A DNA stretch of 20,059 bases from a virus. Within the stretch, counting starts at the first letter, position 1, and each line of letters begins with the position of its first letter. A program made the position numbers and the translations under genes. The notes below the pieces were generated by a model that saw only the letters and a program-made list of their open reading frames with translations, had not been told where the DNA came from and did not search any database. Shown here piece by piece: positions 1,430 through 20,059 of the stretch. The stretch spans positions 1 to 20,059 of IMG/VR virus record IMGVR_UViG_3300032285_000392; one strand, 5' to 3'.

Positions 1430-3313
1430 CTATTTGATTGTGTTAAAGGCTACGCCACATGCAGTAGCGCCGGGAGGCAGCGTTGCTGGATTTGCGTACT
1501 TGGTTCCAAAGCCAGAACCTGAAAACGAGTATGCGGTAATATAGGGGCTGCCATCGTGCGCGATAGCTATTGCAGAGCTATCCGGGCTAAATGCGACACC
1601 GCCCCCAGCGCCCGTCGGTAGCGTCGCTGGATTAGAATATTTAGTTCCAAAGCCAGAACCTGACCATGGATAAGCAAATATAAATGGCGTTGTATCGCAA
1701 ACAACAGCAATAGCTGAACTATCCCCGCTAAATGCTATGCCTCTGCCATTGCCCGTCGGTAGCGTTGCTGGATCAGAATATTTAGTTCCAAAACCAGAAC
1801 CTGACCATGGATATGCTGAAATGTAAGGACTGCTAGAGTGCGCGATAGCTATTGCAGAACCATTGGGGCTAAACGCTACGCCAAATCCATTATTGGCAAG
1901 TAGTGTTCCTGGATCAAAATATTGAGTTCCAAATCCAGAACTTGACCATGGATATACTGAAATGTAAGGACTTAATTGATGCGCGATAGCTATTGCAGAA
2001 CTATTCGTGCTAAACGCTACGCCGTAGCCCCCGCCTGTTGGTGCCGTCGCTGGATTTGCATATTTAGTCCCAAAACCGGAACCTGAACATGGGTATGCTG
2101 AAATATTGGGGAAACCACTGTGAGCAACAGCTATTGTAGAACCATCAGGGCTAAACGCTATGCCATTGCCGGAGCCTGTCGGCAAAGTGCTTGGATCAGA
2201 ACATTTAGTTCCAAAACCAGAACCTGACCATGGATATATTGAGGTGTAAGGACTGCTTTGATACGATACAGCAATCTGCTGAACCGGATACCCGCCGGAT
2301 GTGAAGGCAACGCTAAATGCCAAGTTTGTTGGTAACGTGGTTGGGTTAGCGTATTTGGTTCCGAAACCAGAAGCCGACCATGAATAAGCAAATATAAATG
2401 GGGTTGTGTCGCAAGCAACAGCAATAGCCGAACTATCCCCACTAAAAGCAACACCGTAACCGGTGCCAGAAGGCAAGGTGGCCGGATTAGCATATTTAGT
2501 TCCAAAACCAGACCCCGACCACGGGTATGCGGTAACAAACGGCGTTGTGTCACTAACAACAGCAATAGCCGACCCATTTGGGCTAAACGCGACGCCTCGA
2601 CTAATATCTGGTGGTAATGTTGCGGGATCGGAATATTTAGTCCCATACCCAGAACTTGACCAAGGGTATGCCGACACAAACGGAGATGAAATATGAGCAA
2701 AAGCAATGGCAGCGCCATTGGGGCTGAACGCCACGCTTAAAGCCCCGCCTGCCGGTGGGGTTGCTGCGTTGGCATATTTAGTTCCAAATCCAGACCCCGA
2801 CCATGCGTATACCGACCCGTTACTATCAGCCACAGCGAGAGCGGTTCCGTCTGGACTGAACGCTACGCCGCTGCACTGCCCAACCGGCAAAGTCGAAGGA
2901 TTGGCATATTTAGTTCCAAATCCAGAGCCTGACCACGGGTACACAGTTACATATGGCGACCCAAGATGGCCCACAGCCAAAGCCGAACTATTGTAATTAA
3001 ACGCAGAACTTTGAGCTAGTGCCGCCGGTAGCGTAGCCGGATCGGAATACCTGCTTCCGAATCCAGACCCAGACCAAGAATAAGCCACAACATATGGTGA
3101 TCCTGATAAAGCCGCCGCAAGAACGGTTCCGGTTGGATTAAACGAAACACCCGTATAACCGGTTGGAAGTGAAGCTGGATTAGCGTATTTGGTTCCAAAT
3201 CCACTTGTTGACCAAGGATAAACAGAAATATATGGCGAACTAAGATGCCCAACGGCAATTGCCCGAGACGGTGCTGACGCGGCTGAAACCTGAGTTGTAT
3301 TTGCGCTAAACAT
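1430..3313 (-). CDS. 13-repeat beta-propeller-like tail-region protein (627 aa)
   Basis: After an 18-residue leader the entire protein is 13 consecutive repeats of 44-50 residues (mostly 47). Each follows the plan IAVAH..SPYISAYPWSGSG, FGTKYANPATLPTG, GVAFSPDGSA. This resembles WD40/YVTN-type propeller blades: a hydrophobic strand, a Tyr/Trp strand, and the FSPDG turn before the next strand. No signal peptide is seen. Repeat 4 is three residues short and repeat 7 three long. The gene sits with the fibre genes and begins on the preceding TGA (TGATG), so an adhesin or tail-tip role is likely. Codon use looks AT-richer than the head genes, perhaps indicating separate acquisition. A receptor-binding function is inference. 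Confidence 0.85.
   Translation of the reverse strand: MFSANTTQVSAASAPSRAIAVGHLSSPYISVYPWSTSGFGTKYANPASLPTGYTGVSFNPTGTVLAAALSGSPYVVAYSWSGSGFGSRYSDPATLPAALAQSSAFNYNSSALAVGHLGSPYVTVYPWSGSGFGTKYANPSTLPVGQCSGVAFSPDGTALAVADSNGSVYAWSGSGFGTKYANAATPPAGGALSVAFSPNGAAIAFAHISSPFVSAYPWSSSGYGTKYSDPATLPPDISRGVAFSPNGSAIAVVSDTTPFVTAYPWSGSGFGTKYANPATLPSGTGYGVAFSGDSSAIAVACDTTPFIFAYSWSASGFGTKYANPTTLPTNLAFSVAFTSGGYPVQQIAVSYQSSPYTSIYPWSGSGFGTKCSDPSTLPTGSGNGIAFSPDGSTIAVAHSGFPNISAYPCSGSGFGTKYANPATAPTGGGYGVAFSTNSSAIAIAHQLSPYISVYPWSSSGFGTQYFDPGTLLANNGFGVAFSPNGSAIAIAHSSSPYISAYPWSGSGFGTKYSDPATLPTGNGRGIAFSGDSSAIAVVCDTTPFIFAYPWSGSGFGTKYSNPATLPTGAGGGVAFSPDSSAIAIAHDGSPYITAYSFSGSGFGTKYANPATLPPGATACGVAFNTIK
1433..3259 (-). repeat. 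Tandem repeats of about 141 bp, 13 copies
   Basis: In-frame 47-codon units span nearly the whole gene. They are readable on the plus strand as recurring TTAGTTCCAAA(A/T)CCAGAACCTGACCATGG-type blocks about 141 bases apart. Copies vary from near-identical to strongly diverged; the block 1671-1732 matches 2385-2446 at 57 of 62 bases. The spacing is uniform and coding, with no unique spacers. Confidence 0.9.
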
Positions 3314-4026
3314 CAGAGGTAATTCTGCCCAGCAACCGAACCCAGCCAGTTCGTGCCATCAGCCGTGAACACAAATTTATCGCCTTTGCTGGCGGTGCTG
3401 GTGATTGTTGGCGCGGTAGACGAAGGCCACTTGACCACAGCGGGCCACGTCGCAGTTCTGCTGCCCGTGGCGTCCTGCTTCAGGAACATCATGAAGGATT
3501 GCCCTGCGGTGGCGGTTGGGAACGTGAACGTGCAGTTACCCGTCAACGTCAGGATTTGCAAGGTGCCGTTCGCTAAAGAAACTGTGTAAGCCGTGCTGGT
3601 GTTGGCTGTTACGGTTTCTTCGGTGTAACCATCGTTTACCGTCACAGCAGACAGCGTGAAACTGGTAAACGTGTTGGTGTTGCCCAGCGTACCTGCATTG
3701 TTATACAGCGCGTAACCCGAGGTGCCGCCGCTAATACCTGTTGTGCCAACCGTAAGGCCGCTGGCAACGGTCGAGAACGACAAAGTGCCCGATCCGTTGG
3801 TGGTCACCACCTGACCATTGGTGCCGTCTGCGGTCGGGTATTTTAGCCCTGCCGGATTGTTCATAAGGCGGGTGACGGTGCCCGACGCATTTTTAGAAAA
3901 CAGCGCCATGTCGGTGTTGGCGATGTTGATCGCCAGTTCGCCATCCGCAAGGTTCGTGTTGACGGGCACCGCTGCGCCGGTCGTCGTGCGGTACAACTGG
4001 ATCGGCGTGAATCCGACGGCGGCCAT
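3313..4026 (-). CDS. Tail fibre/receptor-type structural protein (237 aa)
   Basis: The N-terminus (GFTPIQLYRTTTGAAVPVNT, LADGELAINIANTDMALFSK) is a module commonly found at the start of phage fibre-like proteins. It is followed by Gly/Thr/Ser-rich linkers (TNGSGTLSFSTVASG, GTSGYALYNNAGTLGN). The C-terminal beta domain has LTGNCTFTFPTATAGQSFMMF, TWPAVVKWPSSTAPTITS and DKFVFTADGTNWLGSVAGQ, a pattern frequent in secondary tail fibres and phage adhesins. Its ribosome site AGGAG lies within the end of the endonuclease gene. The TGA overlaps the next ATG by one base. Confidence 0.8.
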   Translation of the reverse strand: MAAVGFTPIQLYRTTTGAAVPVNTNLADGELAINIANTDMALFSKNASGTVTRLMNNPAGLKYPTADGTNGQVVTTNGSGTLSFSTVASGLTVGTTGISGGTSGYALYNNAGTLGNTNTFTSFTLSAVTVNDGYTEETVTANTSTAYTVSLANGTLQILTLTGNCTFTFPTATAGQSFMMFLKQDATGSRTATWPAVVKWPSSTAPTITSTASKGDKFVFTADGTNWLGSVAGQNYL

Positions 4027-4027
4027 A

Positions 4028-4738
4028 TTATTTCTCCTGTTGCAATTGTTTACGCTTGGCCCAACTAATGCTTGCAGCTTGTGAAAGTTTTTTCCGCGTT
4101 TCTTCGTTTACAGGTTTTTGTTTTCTACCTTTCTGGGCTGCTGAAATTTTAGCTTTTGCTTCATCAGTGTGCGGTCGCCCCGGTTTGCCCATAAGAGACT
4201 CTGAAATTTTAGCTCGCGTTAAAGGGTCTCTAGTTTTTCCAAGCCAAAATCCCGGTGAACCCGTTTTGGCTACAGATATCTTAAGTTTTGATTCTTCTGT
4301 GTGATTTTTGCCGTAAAAATAATTGTTTTGTAAACTACGCGCCTTAGACATTTTTTCTAATGTCTCGGGTTTATGCGTCCTACCCTTGCGCTGCTCACCC
4401 ATTAACATTCGAGTTTCTTCAGTGTGAGAATAACCAGAAATTCCCTCTCCACCCTCAGTCATATTGGTCAACTTCACACCTGCGCGCCTAAGAGCTTTGA
4501 TCAAACCTTTTTCTAAGTCTAACGCAAGCTCTTCGCTTGAGCAATCAAAGCGACCTACAAGTATGATGTCTTCGCCGTATTTGCCAATTACGTTACCATG
4601 GTGATAATTTCTAGCCGAAAAATCATGCGAACGCCTTCCTTTACCCTTACCAACATAAAATATACCGCTCGCATCCGTTATATCCGGGCGAGCGTGGACG
4701 TATGCGTAGAACTGAGACGATTGTTGTAGCTCCTGCAT
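4028..4738 (-). CDS. GIY-YIG-type homing endonuclease with NUMOD3 repeats
   Basis: The 236-residue protein has a divergent GIY-YIG domain (residues about 9-98): FYAYVHARPD, GIFYVGKGKGRR (27-36), a metal-binding Glu in LDLEKGLI (76) and NMTEGGEG (92-99). It is followed by at least four NUMOD3-type repeats (GYSHTEETRMLMGEQRKGR, KNHTEESKLKISVAKTG, PHTDEAKAKISAAQKGR and others). It lies between the DUF5856-like gene and a fibre gene; its ATG is 4 nt after the upstream TGA. The last codons (CAG GAG AAA TAA) supply the Shine-Dalgarno of the fibre gene, whose ATG is one base after the TAA. It has an AT-rich composition. It is a free-standing mobile endonuclease; its target is unknown. Confidence 0.9.
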   Translation of the reverse strand: MQELQQSSQFYAYVHARPDITDASGIFYVGKGKGRRSHDFSARNYHHGNVIGKYGEDIILVGRFDCSSEELALDLEKGLIKALRRAGVKLTNMTEGGEGISGYSHTEETRMLMGEQRKGRTHKPETLEKMSKARSLQNNYFYGKNHTEESKLKISVAKTGSPGFWLGKTRDPLTRAKISESLMGKPGRPHTDEAKAKISAAQKGRKQKPVNEETRKKLSQAASISWAKRKQLQQEK

Positions 4739-14404: not shown

Positions 14405-15082
14405 CTATGGATTTGGGTTGGGGTTTAATCTGGCAGCATTTGCCGCCAGAACTCCAGCGCGGATACGCGCCTTTGTTTCTTCACTTCTCGGGCCTCTTGG
14501 CCCTCTTTTTATTCCAGACAATTTTGCGCTAATTTTAGCGCAGATTTCGGCATCACGACTTTTGCCAAAATATTGATGCTTAGCGCCGCTATGAGCTTCC
14601 GACATTTTTTGCCGGGTCTCTTCACTGGGTATTACACCCAAAGTGTGCTGGTTACCAATCAACGCGGTTCCTATGGCAGATCGATGAGACTTTGACAGCA
14701 CGTGTCCTGCGGTATTGCGATTCCCCAACAAACCTGCGGATATGCGTGAGCGGTGGTCCTCAGACAAAGAAACCCCTTTAAATTTTTTAGACATCCAAAT
14801 AGCATGCTTACGTTTTGCAATATCGTATAACCGACTATTAATTACGCGTTGTTCCCCAGCGGCAAACATCATCACGGCATACCACTGTGAGCCACCGTGA
14901 ACATGTGCCAAGAAAACATGAGCGATAAAATGCTCACGTGCGGTCAACCATACAAGGTTGTTACGGCTATTAGACCCACCCAAGCTGCGTGGAACGACAT
15001 GATGTCGCTCCGCGTAGCCTTTCGGCTTACCCCGCGCTTTAGCTTTGGCGATAAGCGCCTCGTAGTGTTTTGAATAATTCAT
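14405..15082 (-). CDS. HNH homing endonuclease with NUMOD3 repeats
   Basis: This 225-residue protein has an N-terminal HNH nuclease motif: ERHHVVPRSLGGSNSRNN (His27, His28, Asn41/42) followed by AREHFIAHVFLAH (His51 and His55, metal-binding). Residues about 106-212 contain NUMOD3-type repeats such as SLSEDHRSRISAGLLGNRN and PSEETRQKMSEAHSG. It is a free-standing homing-type endonuclease, not an intein or intron product: it has its own ATG, overlapping the portal TGA by 4 nt, and the portal appears complete. It ends in RLNPNPNP, echoing the portal C-terminus (GLNPNP), and its TAG is part of the TAGGAG ribosome-binding site of the next gene. Composition looks AT-richer than its neighbours. Confidence 0.92.
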   Translation of the reverse strand: MNYSKHYEALIAKAKARGKPKGYAERHHVVPRSLGGSNSRNNLVWLTAREHFIAHVFLAHVHGGSQWYAVMMFAAGEQRVINSRLYDIAKRKHAIWMSKKFKGVSLSEDHRSRISAGLLGNRNTAGHVLSKSHRSAIGTALIGNQHTLGVIPSEETRQKMSEAHSGAKHQYFGKSRDAEICAKISAKLSGIKRGPRGPRSEETKARIRAGVLAANAARLNPNPNP

Positions 15083-17634
15083 GGGTTTGGATTCAACCCT
15101 GTGCCTGTGCTGACCGCCACCTTCTCGCCGGTCGCCATTTCGGCGGCAGCAAGCAATTTGGCGGTGTCGTTATCCGCCTGATTCATGCGCTCGCGGGAAG
15201 CAATCTCGGCCCCCTTGCGCTCGTTCTCTGCGGCTTCCCTAAGCTGATCGGCCCGCAGTTTCTCGACAAGTTCCATCTGCTTGCTTTGCAGCTTAGCCTG
15301 CTCAAGTTGGGCATCCATCATCAGGCGCTGCTGCTCGATCTGGGCCTTCTGCTGATCGGCCTGGGCCTGCATTGCAAGGCGCTGTTGATCAAGCTGAGCA
15401 CGCTGCTGATCGGTCTGGGCGCGCTGCTGGATAGCCATCTGCTGCATCTGGGCACCAAGCTGGGCGACCTGCATGCTGTTGTCAGGCGGCATCTGCGGGT
15501 GCGGTGCGAACTGCTGTGCCGCCTGATCAATTGCGGCCAGTTCCTGGGCCATCCCACCCAGTTGCTGCTCGATGTACTGCTGCACCTGCACGATCACCTT
15601 GACCTGATCGGCGGCTTCTTCGGGGATCAAGTGCTTTTTCTGGGCGATAGAGACGCTCCTGTGCGCCTCAACCAGATAATAATTCAGCAAGTGATCGCGC
15701 AAGTGCATGGACATCGGATATAGGAACGTCTTGGTGATCGCCGGATTGCTGCCGAACAGCGGCGACTTCAAAAACGCCATATGCGTCATAATGTGGGCGA
15801 TGTGATCCTGCTTTGGCAGCACATAAACCGGCTGCCCCATAGATGCGGCCACGTTTTCGCTGACCGGGTCCATATCGTCCTGGGCAGGCTTAGGCTGAAG
15901 CACCTCATCATCCGGGATTTTGAGGGTGCGAAGGAACATCTCCTCGACTTTGCGAGGGTCATATAGCTGCGGCATCGCCGCTGCGCGCGCCATAATTGCC
16001 TGAATTTGGGCAAAACGCTGCGTTTCGGAAAAAATTGCCGGGTCACTGACTGGAACCACGTCGAGGGGGCCGTCAAAATCCGACGGATCAATTTCGAGGC
16101 CGTCAACCTGATCTTCGATGTCCTGTTCGGTCAGGTACGCCGAGTTAATCCGGTGCAAAATCTTAAAACACCGGGCCATCGAGTTGTGCAGGCGGGCGTG
16201 AATGCTCGAGAACACGACCATGCCCTGCTCGATCAGGGCCATTGTGGTGCCGACCGGCTGGTTGGCGTTCTGATCGCTCAGCTTCTCAAAGGAAGTCTGG
16301 ATGACACCCTTACCGGCCTCCACCAAAAAGCCCAGAAGCTGAAACAGCGTCGGGCTCGGCGGGTTGAACGGCATTGGCATGGCGATCTTGCGGACGTCGT
16401 CAATCATCGCGCCGCCGTCCATCTCGACCACTTCGGTCGGCTGGAGGTTGATCGTCTGCCCACCAGGGCCACCCTTGAGCTTCAGCAGGGTGGGGATGTT
16501 CTGGATGTGGGCACTATCCAGCAATGCGCGAAGGGCACCTGTAGCGGCTCCTGAGAGGCCGCCAATCATATGCGTCAGGCCAATCGGATACGCGCCGCGC
16601 CAGGGCACGAACGGGAACTCAACGATCCAGTCGAGTTCTTGATGCCGGGCATCATCCGGTTCCCAATTGCGGTAAAGGGCAAGGGCCTCGCCGGTCGATT
16701 TATCGACGCTCAAAATGTACGGGCAGAGGTCTTCGTCTTCAATGTCGAGGTAGGTGTAGATTTCAAAGATGGTCCGCAGGCCATCCTCGTTGTAGCTGGT
16801 GGATTTGCGGCCCTCGATCTTGTCGTTGGCAATCGTCGCCTTGCTGAACTCGGGGTCATCGGGATAGCCCAGGTCAACGTCGATATACATGCCAGCCTTG
16901 ACGCGCTTCAGGTACTCCATCTTCGTGATATACTGCACATGCGTCTTGCGCTCGGCGGTGTAGAAATTCGTGGCGGCGAACGGCAGGTAGACGTCGTCAA
17001 TCGGCACAAACTCGGCCTGCGGGCGACGGTGTTGCGGGTTCCACATAAACTTGAGGTACTGCCCGCCGCCAAGCGGAAGTTGCGTGCTCAGTTGCTCCAG
17101 TTCGCTGCGGAACTCGGGCATCTGCTGCGTGGTCTGCCAGTTCATGAACGCCGCCTTGCGTTCAGCCTTGGCCACCTTTTCCTTGTCGGCTTCGCCGTAA
17201 ATTTTACTCTTAACCGGCCCGTTCGACGGAAAGATTTCTTTCATGAAGCGCGCAGAGAAATCGACGCAGGCTTCGACGAGCATCGGGTGAACGACTTTGT
17301 TCGCCCCGCTGAACTGGGCACCGCCGGGCGCATCGTCGCCCAGGCCGGTGCGCCGCAGCCCTTCCTCGTACAATTTGTCCCGCTTCTCGCGGGCTTCCTT
17401 GTCGCGCTCGATCTTCTCGAGCAGGTCGGTGACGATGTCCTCTAGCGCGGCCTGATCGACTTCGTCGACAATGTTCGCAAAGTGAGCAAGATGACGCTTC
17501 TCGTCTTTGTCATTCTCAAGCCGAATGATCGCGCCACCGTCTTCGGTATCCTCGACTTCAAGATTGTCCTCGTGGTCGAGTTCAACCATCTCGCCGGGCT
17601 TGTCGTCGTCATCGTCTTTGAGAGTGTCAGACAT
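15079..17634 (-). CDS. Portal protein (P22/podovirus-like)
   Basis: The 851-residue product is the likely portal, the dodecameric ring through which DNA is packaged and ejected. It begins with a very acidic segment (DDDDD at 8-12). The main body follows, with phrases I associate with large podoviral portals: NKVVHPMLVEACVDFSARFMKE, a LPLGGGQYLKFMWN strand, FEIYTYLDIEDED, and SATGALRALLDSAH-type helices. Residues about 721-830 form a Gln-rich coiled coil (repeats of the type DQQRAQLDQQRLAMQAQ), probably the C-terminal barrel or crown. It ends TGLNPNP, and its TGA overlaps the ATG of the HNH gene. GAGG precedes the ATG. The family call rests on these patterns, on size and on position after terL. 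The first ten residues closely resemble those of the scaffold-like protein. Confidence 0.85.
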   Translation of the reverse strand: MSDTLKDDDDDKPGEMVELDHEDNLEVEDTEDGGAIIRLENDKDEKRHLAHFANIVDEVDQAALEDIVTDLLEKIERDKEAREKRDKLYEEGLRRTGLGDDAPGGAQFSGANKVVHPMLVEACVDFSARFMKEIFPSNGPVKSKIYGEADKEKVAKAERKAAFMNWQTTQQMPEFRSELEQLSTQLPLGGGQYLKFMWNPQHRRPQAEFVPIDDVYLPFAATNFYTAERKTHVQYITKMEYLKRVKAGMYIDVDLGYPDDPEFSKATIANDKIEGRKSTSYNEDGLRTIFEIYTYLDIEDEDLCPYILSVDKSTGEALALYRNWEPDDARHQELDWIVEFPFVPWRGAYPIGLTHMIGGLSGAATGALRALLDSAHIQNIPTLLKLKGGPGGQTINLQPTEVVEMDGGAMIDDVRKIAMPMPFNPPSPTLFQLLGFLVEAGKGVIQTSFEKLSDQNANQPVGTTMALIEQGMVVFSSIHARLHNSMARCFKILHRINSAYLTEQDIEDQVDGLEIDPSDFDGPLDVVPVSDPAIFSETQRFAQIQAIMARAAAMPQLYDPRKVEEMFLRTLKIPDDEVLQPKPAQDDMDPVSENVAASMGQPVYVLPKQDHIAHIMTHMAFLKSPLFGSNPAITKTFLYPMSMHLRDHLLNYYLVEAHRSVSIAQKKHLIPEEAADQVKVIVQVQQYIEQQLGGMAQELAAIDQAAQQFAPHPQMPPDNSMQVAQLGAQMQQMAIQQRAQTDQQRAQLDQQRLAMQAQADQQKAQIEQQRLMMDAQLEQAKLQSKQMELVEKLRADQLREAAENERKGAEIASRERMNQADNDTAKLLAAAEMATGEKVAVSTGTGLNPNP

Positions 17635-18757
17635 ATCCAGCCTCGATTTGATTGGCGAGCGCGTTTACCGCGTCAGGATCGTAAAGGGCGGCACCATCGT
17701 TAACAATGCCACCCTCGGCGTACCGCCGATACAAATCAGCCAAGCCGCCTTCAGCGTAGCCCATGGTCTGGCGAATGCGGTCACGGGCTTCAGCCGCTGC
17801 GCCAACTTCAGAACTGGGAGCAGCGCGCCCGGCGATCCGGTCCAGAACCATACCGTTCAGTTGGTCTGCCGTTAGTTCCTCGCGGGGCGCGGGGCGATGC
17901 GTGCGATGGCGAGGAAGACGGGTCGCCCTTACAACAATTTCATGAACAGGTATTGAGTCCACCATGCCGCCATCAGCGTACTTCTGCTCGAGGTGTGCCA
18001 GCCCACCATCGGCGTAGCCGGGCATGCCAGCGCGGCGCATGACCGCAGGCACGTAGGCCCGGGTCTCGGGATTGTCAGGGATTGTATTGCCCGCCTCAGT
18101 TACCCGGCGCGGGCCTGCATTGTACGCGGCCAAAGCCAACGGCACGTTGCCCTCAAACCGATCAAGCTGCTGGCGAAGATACCGGGCACTACCCTCGATA
18201 TTCTGCACGGGATCGCGGGGGTCAACGCGCAGATCGGCGGCGGTGCCGGGCATCAACTGCCCAATGCCAACAGCGCCCCGGGGGCTTACCGCATTTGGAT
18301 CAAACCGGCTTTCCTGTTGGAGCATCGACAGGAACACGTTGCGCGGCAGGCCATACCGCTCGGCCATTTGAATAGCGGTCGCGACGTGCGGGTTCTCGGG
18401 GTTAAAGCGTTCGTGCGTTGGCACCGCCTCAGCACCAGCCGTCTGCGGTAACAATGCTGGCGGAACATGCACCGGGTTGCCACTGGCATCTAGCGGCGGA
18501 GGGGTCGGGGGCACTGGTAGTGACTGAGCCTGACCACGGGCCTGGGGTGCCGGGGGCACTACTGTCGGCGGCGTGGGAGGCAGTGGAAGACCGTGCGAGC
18601 GCGCGGAAGCAAGTAAGGGGGCGGCGGGTGCCGCGCGCCGCTCACGGGCAGAAGCCGCCACTGGATCAAACGGGGCTTGGCGGTTGGCGTTGGACCGGCG
18701 CATCTGCTCGAGCAGGCCCAGCGCGGTCATGCGGTTTGGGATTTCGCGTTCAGCCAT
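17627..18757 (-). CDS. Lytic transglycosylase (SLT domain), probably virion-associated
   Basis: This 376-residue protein carries a soluble-lytic-transglycosylase domain that would cleave peptidoglycan. Residues 1-110 are Pro/Ala-rich and look unstructured. The catalytic domain spans about 122-240: MLQQESRFDPNAVSPRG with catalytic Glu149, then GAVGIGQLMPGTA and LALAAYNAGPRRV, all standard family motifs. After it come two copies of a roughly 22-residue unit built on GYADGG / KYADGG (247-268) and GYAEGG / RYAEGG (333-354). There is no signal peptide. Its position between terminase and portal suggests a particle component acting at DNA entry rather than the lysis enzyme, since a separate endolysin is encoded at 32-685. 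GAGG lies upstream of the ATG, and the end overlaps the portal start by 8 nt. Confidence 0.9.
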   Translation of the reverse strand: MAEREIPNRMTALGLLEQMRRSNANRQAPFDPVAASARERRAAPAAPLLASARSHGLPLPPTPPTVVPPAPQARGQAQSLPVPPTPPPLDASGNPVHVPPALLPQTAGAEAVPTHERFNPENPHVATAIQMAERYGLPRNVFLSMLQQESRFDPNAVSPRGAVGIGQLMPGTAADLRVDPRDPVQNIEGSARYLRQQLDRFEGNVPLALAAYNAGPRRVTEAGNTIPDNPETRAYVPAVMRRAGMPGYADGGLAHLEQKYADGGMVDSIPVHEIVVRATRLPRHRTHRPAPREELTADQLNGMVLDRIAGRAAPSSEVGAAAEARDRIRQTMGYAEGGLADLYRRYAEGGIVNDGAALYDPDAVNALANQIEAGYV

Positions 18758-18768
18758 CTACCGGTTCC

Positions 18769-18819
18769 TCACCACTTAACCTTGTCTGTCTTGTCCCAGA
18801 TCGGTTTCTTAGGCGGCAT
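18769..18819 (-). CDS. Possible 16-residue ORF between endonuclease and transglycosylase
   Basis: A short frame, MPPKKPIWDKTDKVKW, starts at an ATG lying inside the last codons of the GIY-YIG gene and ends at TGA just before the Shine-Dalgarno of the next gene. It is basic with two Trp residues. I do not recognise it. The only support is the tight fit between neighbouring genes; it has no strong ribosome-binding site of its own. If the endonuclease inserted later, this ORF would originally have overlapped the terL 3' end. It may be a leader peptide, a remnant, or chance. Confidence 0.35.
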   Translation of the reverse strand: MPPKKPIWDKTDKVKW

Positions 18820-19456
18820 CAGATTTAACCCTTTCACGCTTCCGCTGAACTCCTAAACGCTGCAACTCAAGTTGGCGAGTTTTATATTCCGGATCAGCCC
18901 ACTTTAGTTTTTGGCTTTCGGCGCGAATTTTTCGTGCCTCCTCGGTTTGAGGGACCCCCTTTTTTGCTTTTGAAATATTTTCACCCCATTCCGGTTTACG
19001 GGGAGTGGCTTTGAGAGTCGCCCGAATTTTTTGTTTTGTTTCGTCAGGCATTGTTTTGCCTTTTTGTTTTTCAGATCGCAGCTTTTTTGACTCTTCAGAG
19101 TGTTTGCGACCTTTGTGAGCCAATCCAATTTTCATTTTATCTTCGTCAGTAAAAATATAACCGACGGTGCCATCGCCACCTGCGGTCATATTATACCCAG
19201 CGGGAACCATTGTTGAATACGCAGCAATGGCTTTGACTTCCAAGTCTTTCACATAAGAAAAAGTAGATGTTAACAAAATTTCTTTTTTAAAGCTATCAAA
19301 TCCATATTTACAAATAGCTTTATGAAGCACGCATTTGGACCCGCAGCGAGCGGCATGAGAATGCTCTAACCAACGCTTGCGTGTGTTTTTTGTTATACCG
19401 ATATACACCTTACCCGAAGGCGAAGTTAATCGATAAAGATGTGCGGTTTCTGTCAT
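18809..19456 (-). CDS. GIY-YIG homing endonuclease with NUMOD3 repeats
   Basis: This 215-residue protein is a free-standing, site-specific endonuclease of the GIY-YIG class. The N-terminal catalytic domain (about residues 6-95) shows LYRLTSPSGKVYIGIT (the two Tyr motifs), the conserved Arg in KRW (28), the metal-binding Glu in DLEVKAI (73) and Asn in GYNMTAGGDG (89). Residues about 104-187 hold several NUMOD3-type DNA-binding repeats of the kind TDEDKMKIGLAHKGRKHSEE. Its ATG overlaps the terL TGA by 4 nt, so translation is probably coupled. Base composition looks more AT-rich than its neighbours, as expected of a mobile gene. The C-terminal KRERVKSDAA resembles the terL C-terminus (KRERINPYAA). 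Homing activity and cleavage site are inferred. Confidence 0.93.
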   Translation of the reverse strand: MTETAHLYRLTSPSGKVYIGITKNTRKRWLEHSHAARCGSKCVLHKAICKYGFDSFKKEILLTSTFSYVKDLEVKAIAAYSTMVPAGYNMTAGGDGTVGYIFTDEDKMKIGLAHKGRKHSEESKKLRSEKQKGKTMPDETKQKIRATLKATPRKPEWGENISKAKKGVPQTEEARKIRAESQKLKWADPEYKTRQLELQRLGVQRKRERVKSDAA

Positions 19457-20059
19457 GCTGCGTAAGGATTTATCCGCTCCCGCTTAAATTGCTGAGGCTC
19501 GTCCCGCTCTCGGGCTTGAGGCAATTCAAACCACCCCTCATTTTTTAAAAATATCACAGCTTGAGTCGTGCAGTCCACATAATCATCATGGGCCGCAACC
19601 GGAAACCTAGCCAGTTGCTTGATGAACGCCGTCGCCCAGCTCACGGGTTGGCCACGGTTTTTGCCACTCTCTGGCACCCACATTAGCCCGAGTTCCAGCG
19701 TCGGGGCTGCCTGATGGGCTCGGCTGATTTTGTCGGCATTGCCGGGATTGTAGGCAACGGCTGGCACCCTCGCAAGCCGCAGGTCTTGCAGCAGCGACTG
19801 ACCGGACGCCTTAGCCTCGACCAGTATCCTGTCGGGCTTGCGCGGGCGGCGTATGCCGTCCTTGACCGATGTTGCGCCATACTCGGTTGACCAATCCTTT
19901 ATCGCCCGGGCGCGCAGGTCGGGATAGCTGAGGTGTTCGTCCCAGGCGTCGATCAGCAGGATGTTGCGCTGGCCCTGGTGCGTGAAGACGGCCCAGACCG
20001 TGCAAGCTGTCGGATCGCCCGACGTTTTTTCCGTAAATGCACAATCATACGATTGCAGA
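19453..20059 (-). CDS. terL: Terminase large subunit, C-terminal nuclease part (5' end outside window)
   Basis: The reading frame is open from the window edge to a TGA at 19455-19453, giving the last 201 residues of the protein. It is the RNase H-like nuclease half of the phage packaging motor, which cuts concatemeric DNA at the portal. Visible family signatures are QSYDCAF near the start (first catalytic Asp), a LLIDAW strand, ILVEAKASGQSLLQDLR (second acidic residue, the Glu; relatives usually have VEDKASG, so the neighbouring Asp is Ala here), and HDDYVDCTTQA (third acidic cluster). The ATPase half must lie beyond 20059. The stop overlaps the ATG of the following endonuclease gene (ATGA). 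The C-terminus KRERINPYAA is echoed by the C-terminus of that endonuclease. The family call is firm; the start is not visible. Confidence 0.95.
   Translation of the reverse strand, partial: LQSYDCAFTEKTSGDPTACTVWAVFTHQGQRNILLIDAWDEHLSYPDLRARAIKDWSTEYGATSVKDGIRRPRKPDRILVEAKASGQSLLQDLRLARVPAVAYNPGNADKISRAHQAAPTLELGLMWVPESGKNRGQPVSWATAFIKQLARFPVAAHDDYVDCTTQAVIFLKNEGWFELPQARERDEPQQFKRERINPYAA

Follow-up and report, generated by a model that had tools for sequence, protein, structure and literature searches.

Candidate replacement and capture of host-gene tails by homing-endonuclease cassettes after the terL and portal genes of a phage

Endonucleases at gene ends in described systems

In fungal mitochondria, mobile open reading frames (mORFs) have been described in Allomyces macrogynus atp6 and in Glomus sp. 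atp6, atp9, cox2 and nad3 (PMC3630166). Here an endonuclease ORF, of the LAGLIDADG or GIY-YIG type, lies at the 3' part of a gene, a foreign in-phase C-terminus replaces the native one, and the native C-terminus, now farther downstream, resembles that of uninterrupted relatives more closely. In Glomus, mRNA of atp6 and cox2 was found not to include the native C-terminus, and no overlapping gene was described (PMC3630166). In T4-like phages, according to a review (PMC2988022), free-standing GIY-YIG and HNH genes (seg and mob) occur between essential genes, often overlap the upstream ORF (the mobE start lies on the nrdA stop; also segC, segF, mobA and mobC) and show co-conversion of their flanks. 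That review, searched for tail replacement, mentions neither a replaced host-gene tail nor capture of an old one. A further phage element, in ShiLan, contains a hidden out-of-frame HNH and lies within a coding sequence with no known splicing element (PMC11855218).

The stretch analysed here (the window, G000) is 20,059 bases of a phage virus record, with a GIY-YIG endonuclease directly after terL and an HNH endonuclease directly after the portal gene. We consider it highly probable (about 0.87), from comparison with related sequences, that these are two free-standing homing-endonuclease cassettes which each replaced the tail of their host gene and captured the old one. The arrangement is shared with the fungal mORFs (PMC3630166) in the position of the endonuclease ORF, the foreign in-phase C-terminus and the native end displaced downstream. 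It differs in that only about 5–20 codons are involved, and in that both tail cases of the window, and a denA case in Klebsiella, translate the displaced tail as the endonuclease C-terminus, which carries the start signals of the next gene. This likeness may be read as a similar way of working, and descent is not claimed. The sequence-only reading of this DNA had offered the atp6 elements as a precedent, and their way of working indeed matches (PMC3630166). A between-gene ORF overlapping the upstream stop is a feature shared with T4-like endonucleases (PMC2988022). As in ShiLan, an endonuclease has been inserted in phage coding sequence without a known splicing element, but the host gene is neither interrupted nor lengthened and its end is resupplied by the insert. 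Tail-replacing ORFs in fungi and overlap with the upstream stop are thus known, whereas tail replacement with capture in phages and the division of an overlap's duties appear to be new. No phage account of either was found in open-licence full texts, which is weak evidence of absence; that reading, too, had known of no such case in phage terL.

The terL end and the GIY-YIG endonuclease

The C-terminal part of terL (19453..20058, minus strand, as are all genes of interest) is cut by the window edge, matched Pfam Terminase_6C (E=1e-7) and has 80 relatives in IMG/VR. It ends QFKRERINPYAA-stop, and its last 33 bases (19453..19485) encode KRERINPYAA-stop, a recoded tail with TAC as the tyrosine codon, in which the start codon of the next gene has been lost. 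The endonuclease ORF (18809..19456, 215 aa) begins on the terL stop as ATGA (19453..19456), as do those of L001, L083, L084 and L013. Its nuclease domain appears intact, with a Pfam GIY-YIG match (E=4e-6) and the motif residues Y..Y.G, E and N conserved in relatives. The ORF ends RKRERVKSDAA-stop; the segment KRERVKSDAA-stop (18809..18841) contains the GAAAGG and the ATG (18817–18819) of the next gene, which encodes MPPKKPIWDKTDKVKW-stop (18769..18819). The ATGA junction and the start of the next ORF within the last codons of the endonuclease had both been reported from the sequence alone. So had the likeness of the two tails, which on recomputation again came to six of ten residues and 21 of 33 bases including the stop.

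The uninterrupted relatives were examined at the 80 IMG/VR loci, with tail statistics taken on distinct ends. Of 54 distinct uninterrupted ends, 51 have the start of the next gene within the last terL codons as TATG (the tyrosine codon and the next G), and a GAAAGG-like Shine-Dalgarno often lies within terL codons as well, for example CGCGAAAGGGTGAATCCGTATGCCGCCTAAGAAGCCAGTCTGGGACAAG in L012. A different small gene (KS.VNAAGNYTKPGMRKKLF...) overlaps the terL end in uninterrupted L005, L015 and L027, with the same TATG overlap. In uninterrupted L002 and L003 the last terL codons lead directly into the downstream leader seen in the window, TATGCCGCCTAAGAAACCGATCTGGGACAAG. In the window, this terL/leader junction (GATGCCGCCTAAGAAACCGATCTGGGACAAG) is absent from the end of terL and sits at the end of the endonuclease. 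This agrees with the earlier proposal that an endonuclease invaded the 3' end of terL and that the old end became its tail.

Across 51 distinct uninterrupted terL ends the endonuclease tail matched a mean of 21.8 of 33 bases, compared with 10.1 (s.d. 1.9) for 3146 other ORF ends; the highest of these null scores was 16.9, leaving out the terL tails of endonuclease carriers and the same tail in L084. The likeness is thus far above chance, despite an earlier caution that KRER is basic and short. Over the same 33 bases, the endonuclease tail was closer to 29 of the 51 uninterrupted ends and the terL tail to 18, with four ties, a split that does not decide between them. One expectation of the sequence-only reading failed, namely that uninterrupted terL genes would end closer to KSDAA. 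They mostly encode NPYAA or NPYAV; a single base per codon separates K-S-D from N-P-Y. It had also held that relatives running from NPYAA straight into the downstream sequence, with no trace of the endonuclease tail, would refute invasion. The relatives do run on in this way, but the start codon and leader of that junction persist in the endonuclease tail.

All four endonuclease-carrying terL variants (window, L083, L084 and L013) use TAC for the tyrosine, which removes the old start codon from terL, and ATG is retained in the endonuclease tail. The left copy, in terL, keeps the peptide KRE(R/K)INPYAA in recoded form. The right copy, which continues the endonuclease reading frame, has retained the start codon and the downstream leader, and its peptide reads KSDAA in the window, L083 and L084 and SKNAV in L013, where GAAAGG and ATG persist with a spacing one base shorter. 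The two copies would thereby split the work, the left supplying the conserved NPYAA peptide and the right the start codon, Shine-Dalgarno and leader. In predicted structures, the captured tail lengthens the last helix of the GIY-YIG protein with modest confidence and lies beyond the last helix of the HNH protein with low confidence; mean pLDDT was 63–64, which is low, for both endonucleases.

The endonuclease is patchily distributed, being present in three of the 80 terL-relative loci (L001, L013 and L014), and L083 and L084 were found by searching with the endonuclease itself. At least three gains or losses are required on the terL tree, in which L013 is sister to L021, an uninterrupted locus. 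Between these two, the last 60 terL bases hold 18 mismatches and the 1140 before them 92 (p=2e-6); past the endonuclease stop on the right, L013 differs from L016 at one of 105 bases. This indicates that the left tail came with the endonuclease and that the right side is native. Together with the TAC-recoded tail of the window, the divergence agrees with the earlier view that terL carries a replacement end. As the KSD tail is common to the window, L083 and L084, it would have been captured once and then travelled with the endonuclease, which is also indicated by the placement of the window and L084 in terL lineages with uninterrupted neighbours. The best pair of terL loci with and without the endonuclease is 94% identical, with no near-identical pair, and the decisive support comes from the portal and denA genes, where near-identical phages with and without the insert exist.

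The gene after the endonuclease is a 16-codon remnant in the window and longer (MPPKKPIWDKKRPADLGE...) in L001. Two small genes occupy the interval between endonuclease and transglycosylase in L001, and at 18769–18819 of the window they are collapsed into this one ORF, in which MPPKKPIWDK is joined to TDKVKW; the apparent cause is the loss of some 390 bases between GACAAG repeats. The adjacent transglycosylase-domain protein (17627–18757) is 376 aa long in the window and 890 aa long in L001; its ends are similar in both, and the difference amounts to a large internal insertion or deletion.

Portal, denA and further insertions

The portal gene (15079..17634) was named by its size and its position between packaging and head genes, and had no Pfam match. 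Its tail STGTGLNPNP-stop (15079..15111) is recoded by comparison with relatives, and its stop overlaps the start of an HNH-type endonuclease ORF (14405..15082) as ATGA at 15079–15082. This ORF carries NUMOD3 motifs (Pfam E=2e-11) and conserved HH..N..H residues, so that both insertions encode homing-family nuclease domains with intact motif residues, as in free-standing phage homing endonucleases. The portal ends GLNPNP-stop and the HNH ends RLNPNPNP-stop. Uninterrupted portals end GINPNP-stop with the Shine-Dalgarno of the next gene immediately after, for example AACCCAAATCCATAG-GAGTTTACATGG in L091. At the HNH end of the window the corresponding sequence is AACCCAAATCCATAG-GAGTTACCATGG, where the putative displaced portal end AACCCAAATCCATAG (14405..14420) forms the C-terminus and is followed by GAG, the Shine-Dalgarno of the next gene.

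The cleanest comparison is between L172, which carries the HNH, and L122 and L124, which do not. Their left flanks (2582 bases) are 97.7–98.3% identical, and the right flanks of L172 and L122 (2399 bases) are 99.3% identical. The HNH tail of L172 (ATCAATCCCAACCCCTGATAGGAG...) is base-identical to the uninterrupted portal end, and the match continues for more than 470 bases without a mismatch. The last 37 bases of the L172 portal itself hold nine mismatches compared with about 50 in the other 2545 (Fisher 7e-8; 4.5e-9 against L124), all synonymous save one change of I to L. Endonuclease-carrying portals of different lineages share the recoded tail, the window matching L172 at 31 of 33 bases and L124 at 26 of 33. 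Given the concentration of changes in the left copy (9/37, about 2% elsewhere), their absence from the right copy and the recoding common across lineages, import of the left copy with the cassette, as opposed to drift in place, appears to be the only sensible reading.

A related arrangement occurs in cultured phages. In the Klebsiella and Raoultella Jiaodavirus-type phages LAL003, PMBT63 and M12a, denA ends NTQHKVKKC-stop and rnlA starts within its last codons. In Klebsiella phage Mexia, denA ends NTQHTNKAK-stop with an ATGA junction, and the following HNH, 39% identical to that of the window, ends CKHKVKKC-stop. The sequence ACATAAGGTAAAGAAATGTTAG at the end of the Mexia HNH is identical to the uninterrupted denA end, with no mismatch over the next 120 bases and 47 in 1478 bases farther downstream. 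This appears to be an independent case in which a host tail was replaced and the old one captured. As in the fungal mORFs, a foreign in-phase C-terminus was found on the host gene in the L172 portal, L013 terL and Mexia denA. The displaced native C-terminus was base-identical to uninterrupted relatives for portal and denA, and in the window terL its likeness lay in the start codon and leader. In the Lactobacillus Cequinquevirus phages Ld17 and phiLdb, a GIY-YIG gene follows terL, the last 39 terL bases are replaced relative to c5 and Ld25A, and in Ld17 the old terL end (GTTATTTAAGTTTGGGGGTG) persists behind the endonuclease stop, untranslated. Staphylococcus phage PH15 has an endonuclease listed inside a terL annotated in two pieces, which is a different arrangement.

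A third endonuclease with NUMOD3 (4028..4738) appears to be a mirror image, in which the leader and start codon of the next gene were taken over and that gene was given a replaced start. The leader and ATG that it follows are identical to those of the next gene in uninterrupted L180 over at least 65 bases without mismatch, and at its end lie a new Shine-Dalgarno and ATG (CAGGAGAAATAATATG). The head of the following gene, MAAVGFTPIQLYRTTT (3973..4026), differs from L180 at 15 of 54 bases, and the subsequent sequence at 9 of 176 (p=1.6e-5). The same MAAVGF head is found on the next gene in L175, an endonuclease carrier of another background; when L175 is compared with L183, its uninterrupted neighbour, the excess of head mismatches is no more than suggestive (p=0.06). 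The head might also be a simple allelic variant, since L185 and L189, both uninterrupted, have heads of the MAA type.

Proposed mechanism, alternatives and generality

We propose that the cassettes insert in the final codons of structural genes that share their 3' end with the start codon and/or Shine-Dalgarno of the gene that follows. Each cassette would comprise a recoded host tail ending in TGA, overlapped as ATGA by an endonuclease ORF which reads in frame into the displaced original tail and takes its stop. The overlap would then be present twice, the left copy forming the C-terminus of the host protein and the right copy the translation start of the next gene and the stop of the endonuclease. 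Spread would presumably occur by double-strand-break homing with short leftward co-conversion, and recoding may protect the occupied site from cutting, keep the two copies from recombining the cassette out, or both.

Convergence of short, basic, low-complexity tails by chance is extremely improbable as an explanation, common though such tails are. The terL match lies far above the null from 3146 ORF ends (21.8 against 10.1), the downstream leader is continuous with the endonuclease tail, further independent cases exist in the portal/HNH and denA/HNH pairs, and base-identical tails in L172/L122 and Mexia/LAL003 refute it. More serious, though still unlikely, is a target-site duplication of the native tail in place, with the left copy diverging afterwards. 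Two tail copies do flank the endonuclease, and a left copy under protein constraint with a drifting right copy might be expected. In L172, however, the excess of changes lies in the left copy and the right copy has none, and the recoded portal tail is common to lineages.

A nuclease beside terL could also be a working part of the packaging machinery, with the tail likeness reflecting shared binding. Its position fits, and conserved packaging components do exist among the HNH proteins next to terminases (see PMC10448857 and PMC12724721 for discussion). We regard this as very unlikely, since conserved presence beside terL was not observed (3 of 80 loci, in at least three separate lineages with uninterrupted sisters), a related HNH follows denA, which is not a packaging gene, and the right tail drifts in sequence. 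Self-splicing of an intron or intein, with terL joined to the distal tail, would likewise leave an endonuclease flanked by two forms of the same gene end, much as intron-borne homing endonucleases are. That prospect is close to negligible: an Rfam search found no self-splicing core of a group I intron or intein (nothing reached the gathering level, and at E<=1 there was nothing relevant), a full tail with its stop is already in place in terL upstream, and the endonuclease ORF reads in frame through the distal tail.

If tail replacement with capture is correct, it would show a selfish gene invading a tightly overlapping phage late operon without an intron, the shared stretch being doubled and its jobs split. 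It would also account for ATGA junctions and odd endonuclease C-termini, and it predicts the location of the endonuclease's target. One warning for interpretation is that terL, portal or denA may have terminal residues of imported origin. Since such insertions are present in cultured Klebsiella and Lactobacillus phages, they are open to ordinary laboratory crosses.

Tail copying proved not to be a general trait of the HNH family in a set of 51 distinct members, most of them from IMG/VR, that have an ORF upstream. In-register tail identity averaged 6.5 of 24 compared with 6.6 for shuffled pairs, and only the portal and, more weakly, denA cases stood out. No tail copy was found for HNHs beside capsid genes, so it is neither universal nor obligatory, or at a T4-like topoisomerase/HNH pair (L222). 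A search for host-tail relics behind capsid-associated HNHs gave one weak candidate above the null, L248. Tail copies seem to appear where the end of the host gene carries the start signals of the next gene. A broader generalisation is tentative and, in our estimate, somewhat short of even odds: that phage homing endonucleases at overlapping junctions are general "junction-duplicating" cassettes, in tail and head versions, combining a recoded neighbour end with an adopted native end, such that overlapping essential genes are invaded harmlessly and recoding is selected against self-cleavage and precise excision.

Same-family HNHs in L236–L252 and L265 repeatedly lie directly after a gene ending SPIYFAPNISVYTR-stop, which is probably the major capsid protein gene, many with ATGA or TAATGA junctions and without a tail copy. 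Another HNH of this family (L173:3001–3636) has its start overlapping, as ATGA, the stop codon of a helicase-like gene. Elsewhere in the window, a 627-aa ORF (1430–3313) is built from a SPYI..YPWSGSGFGTKYANPATLP-like unit repeated many times.
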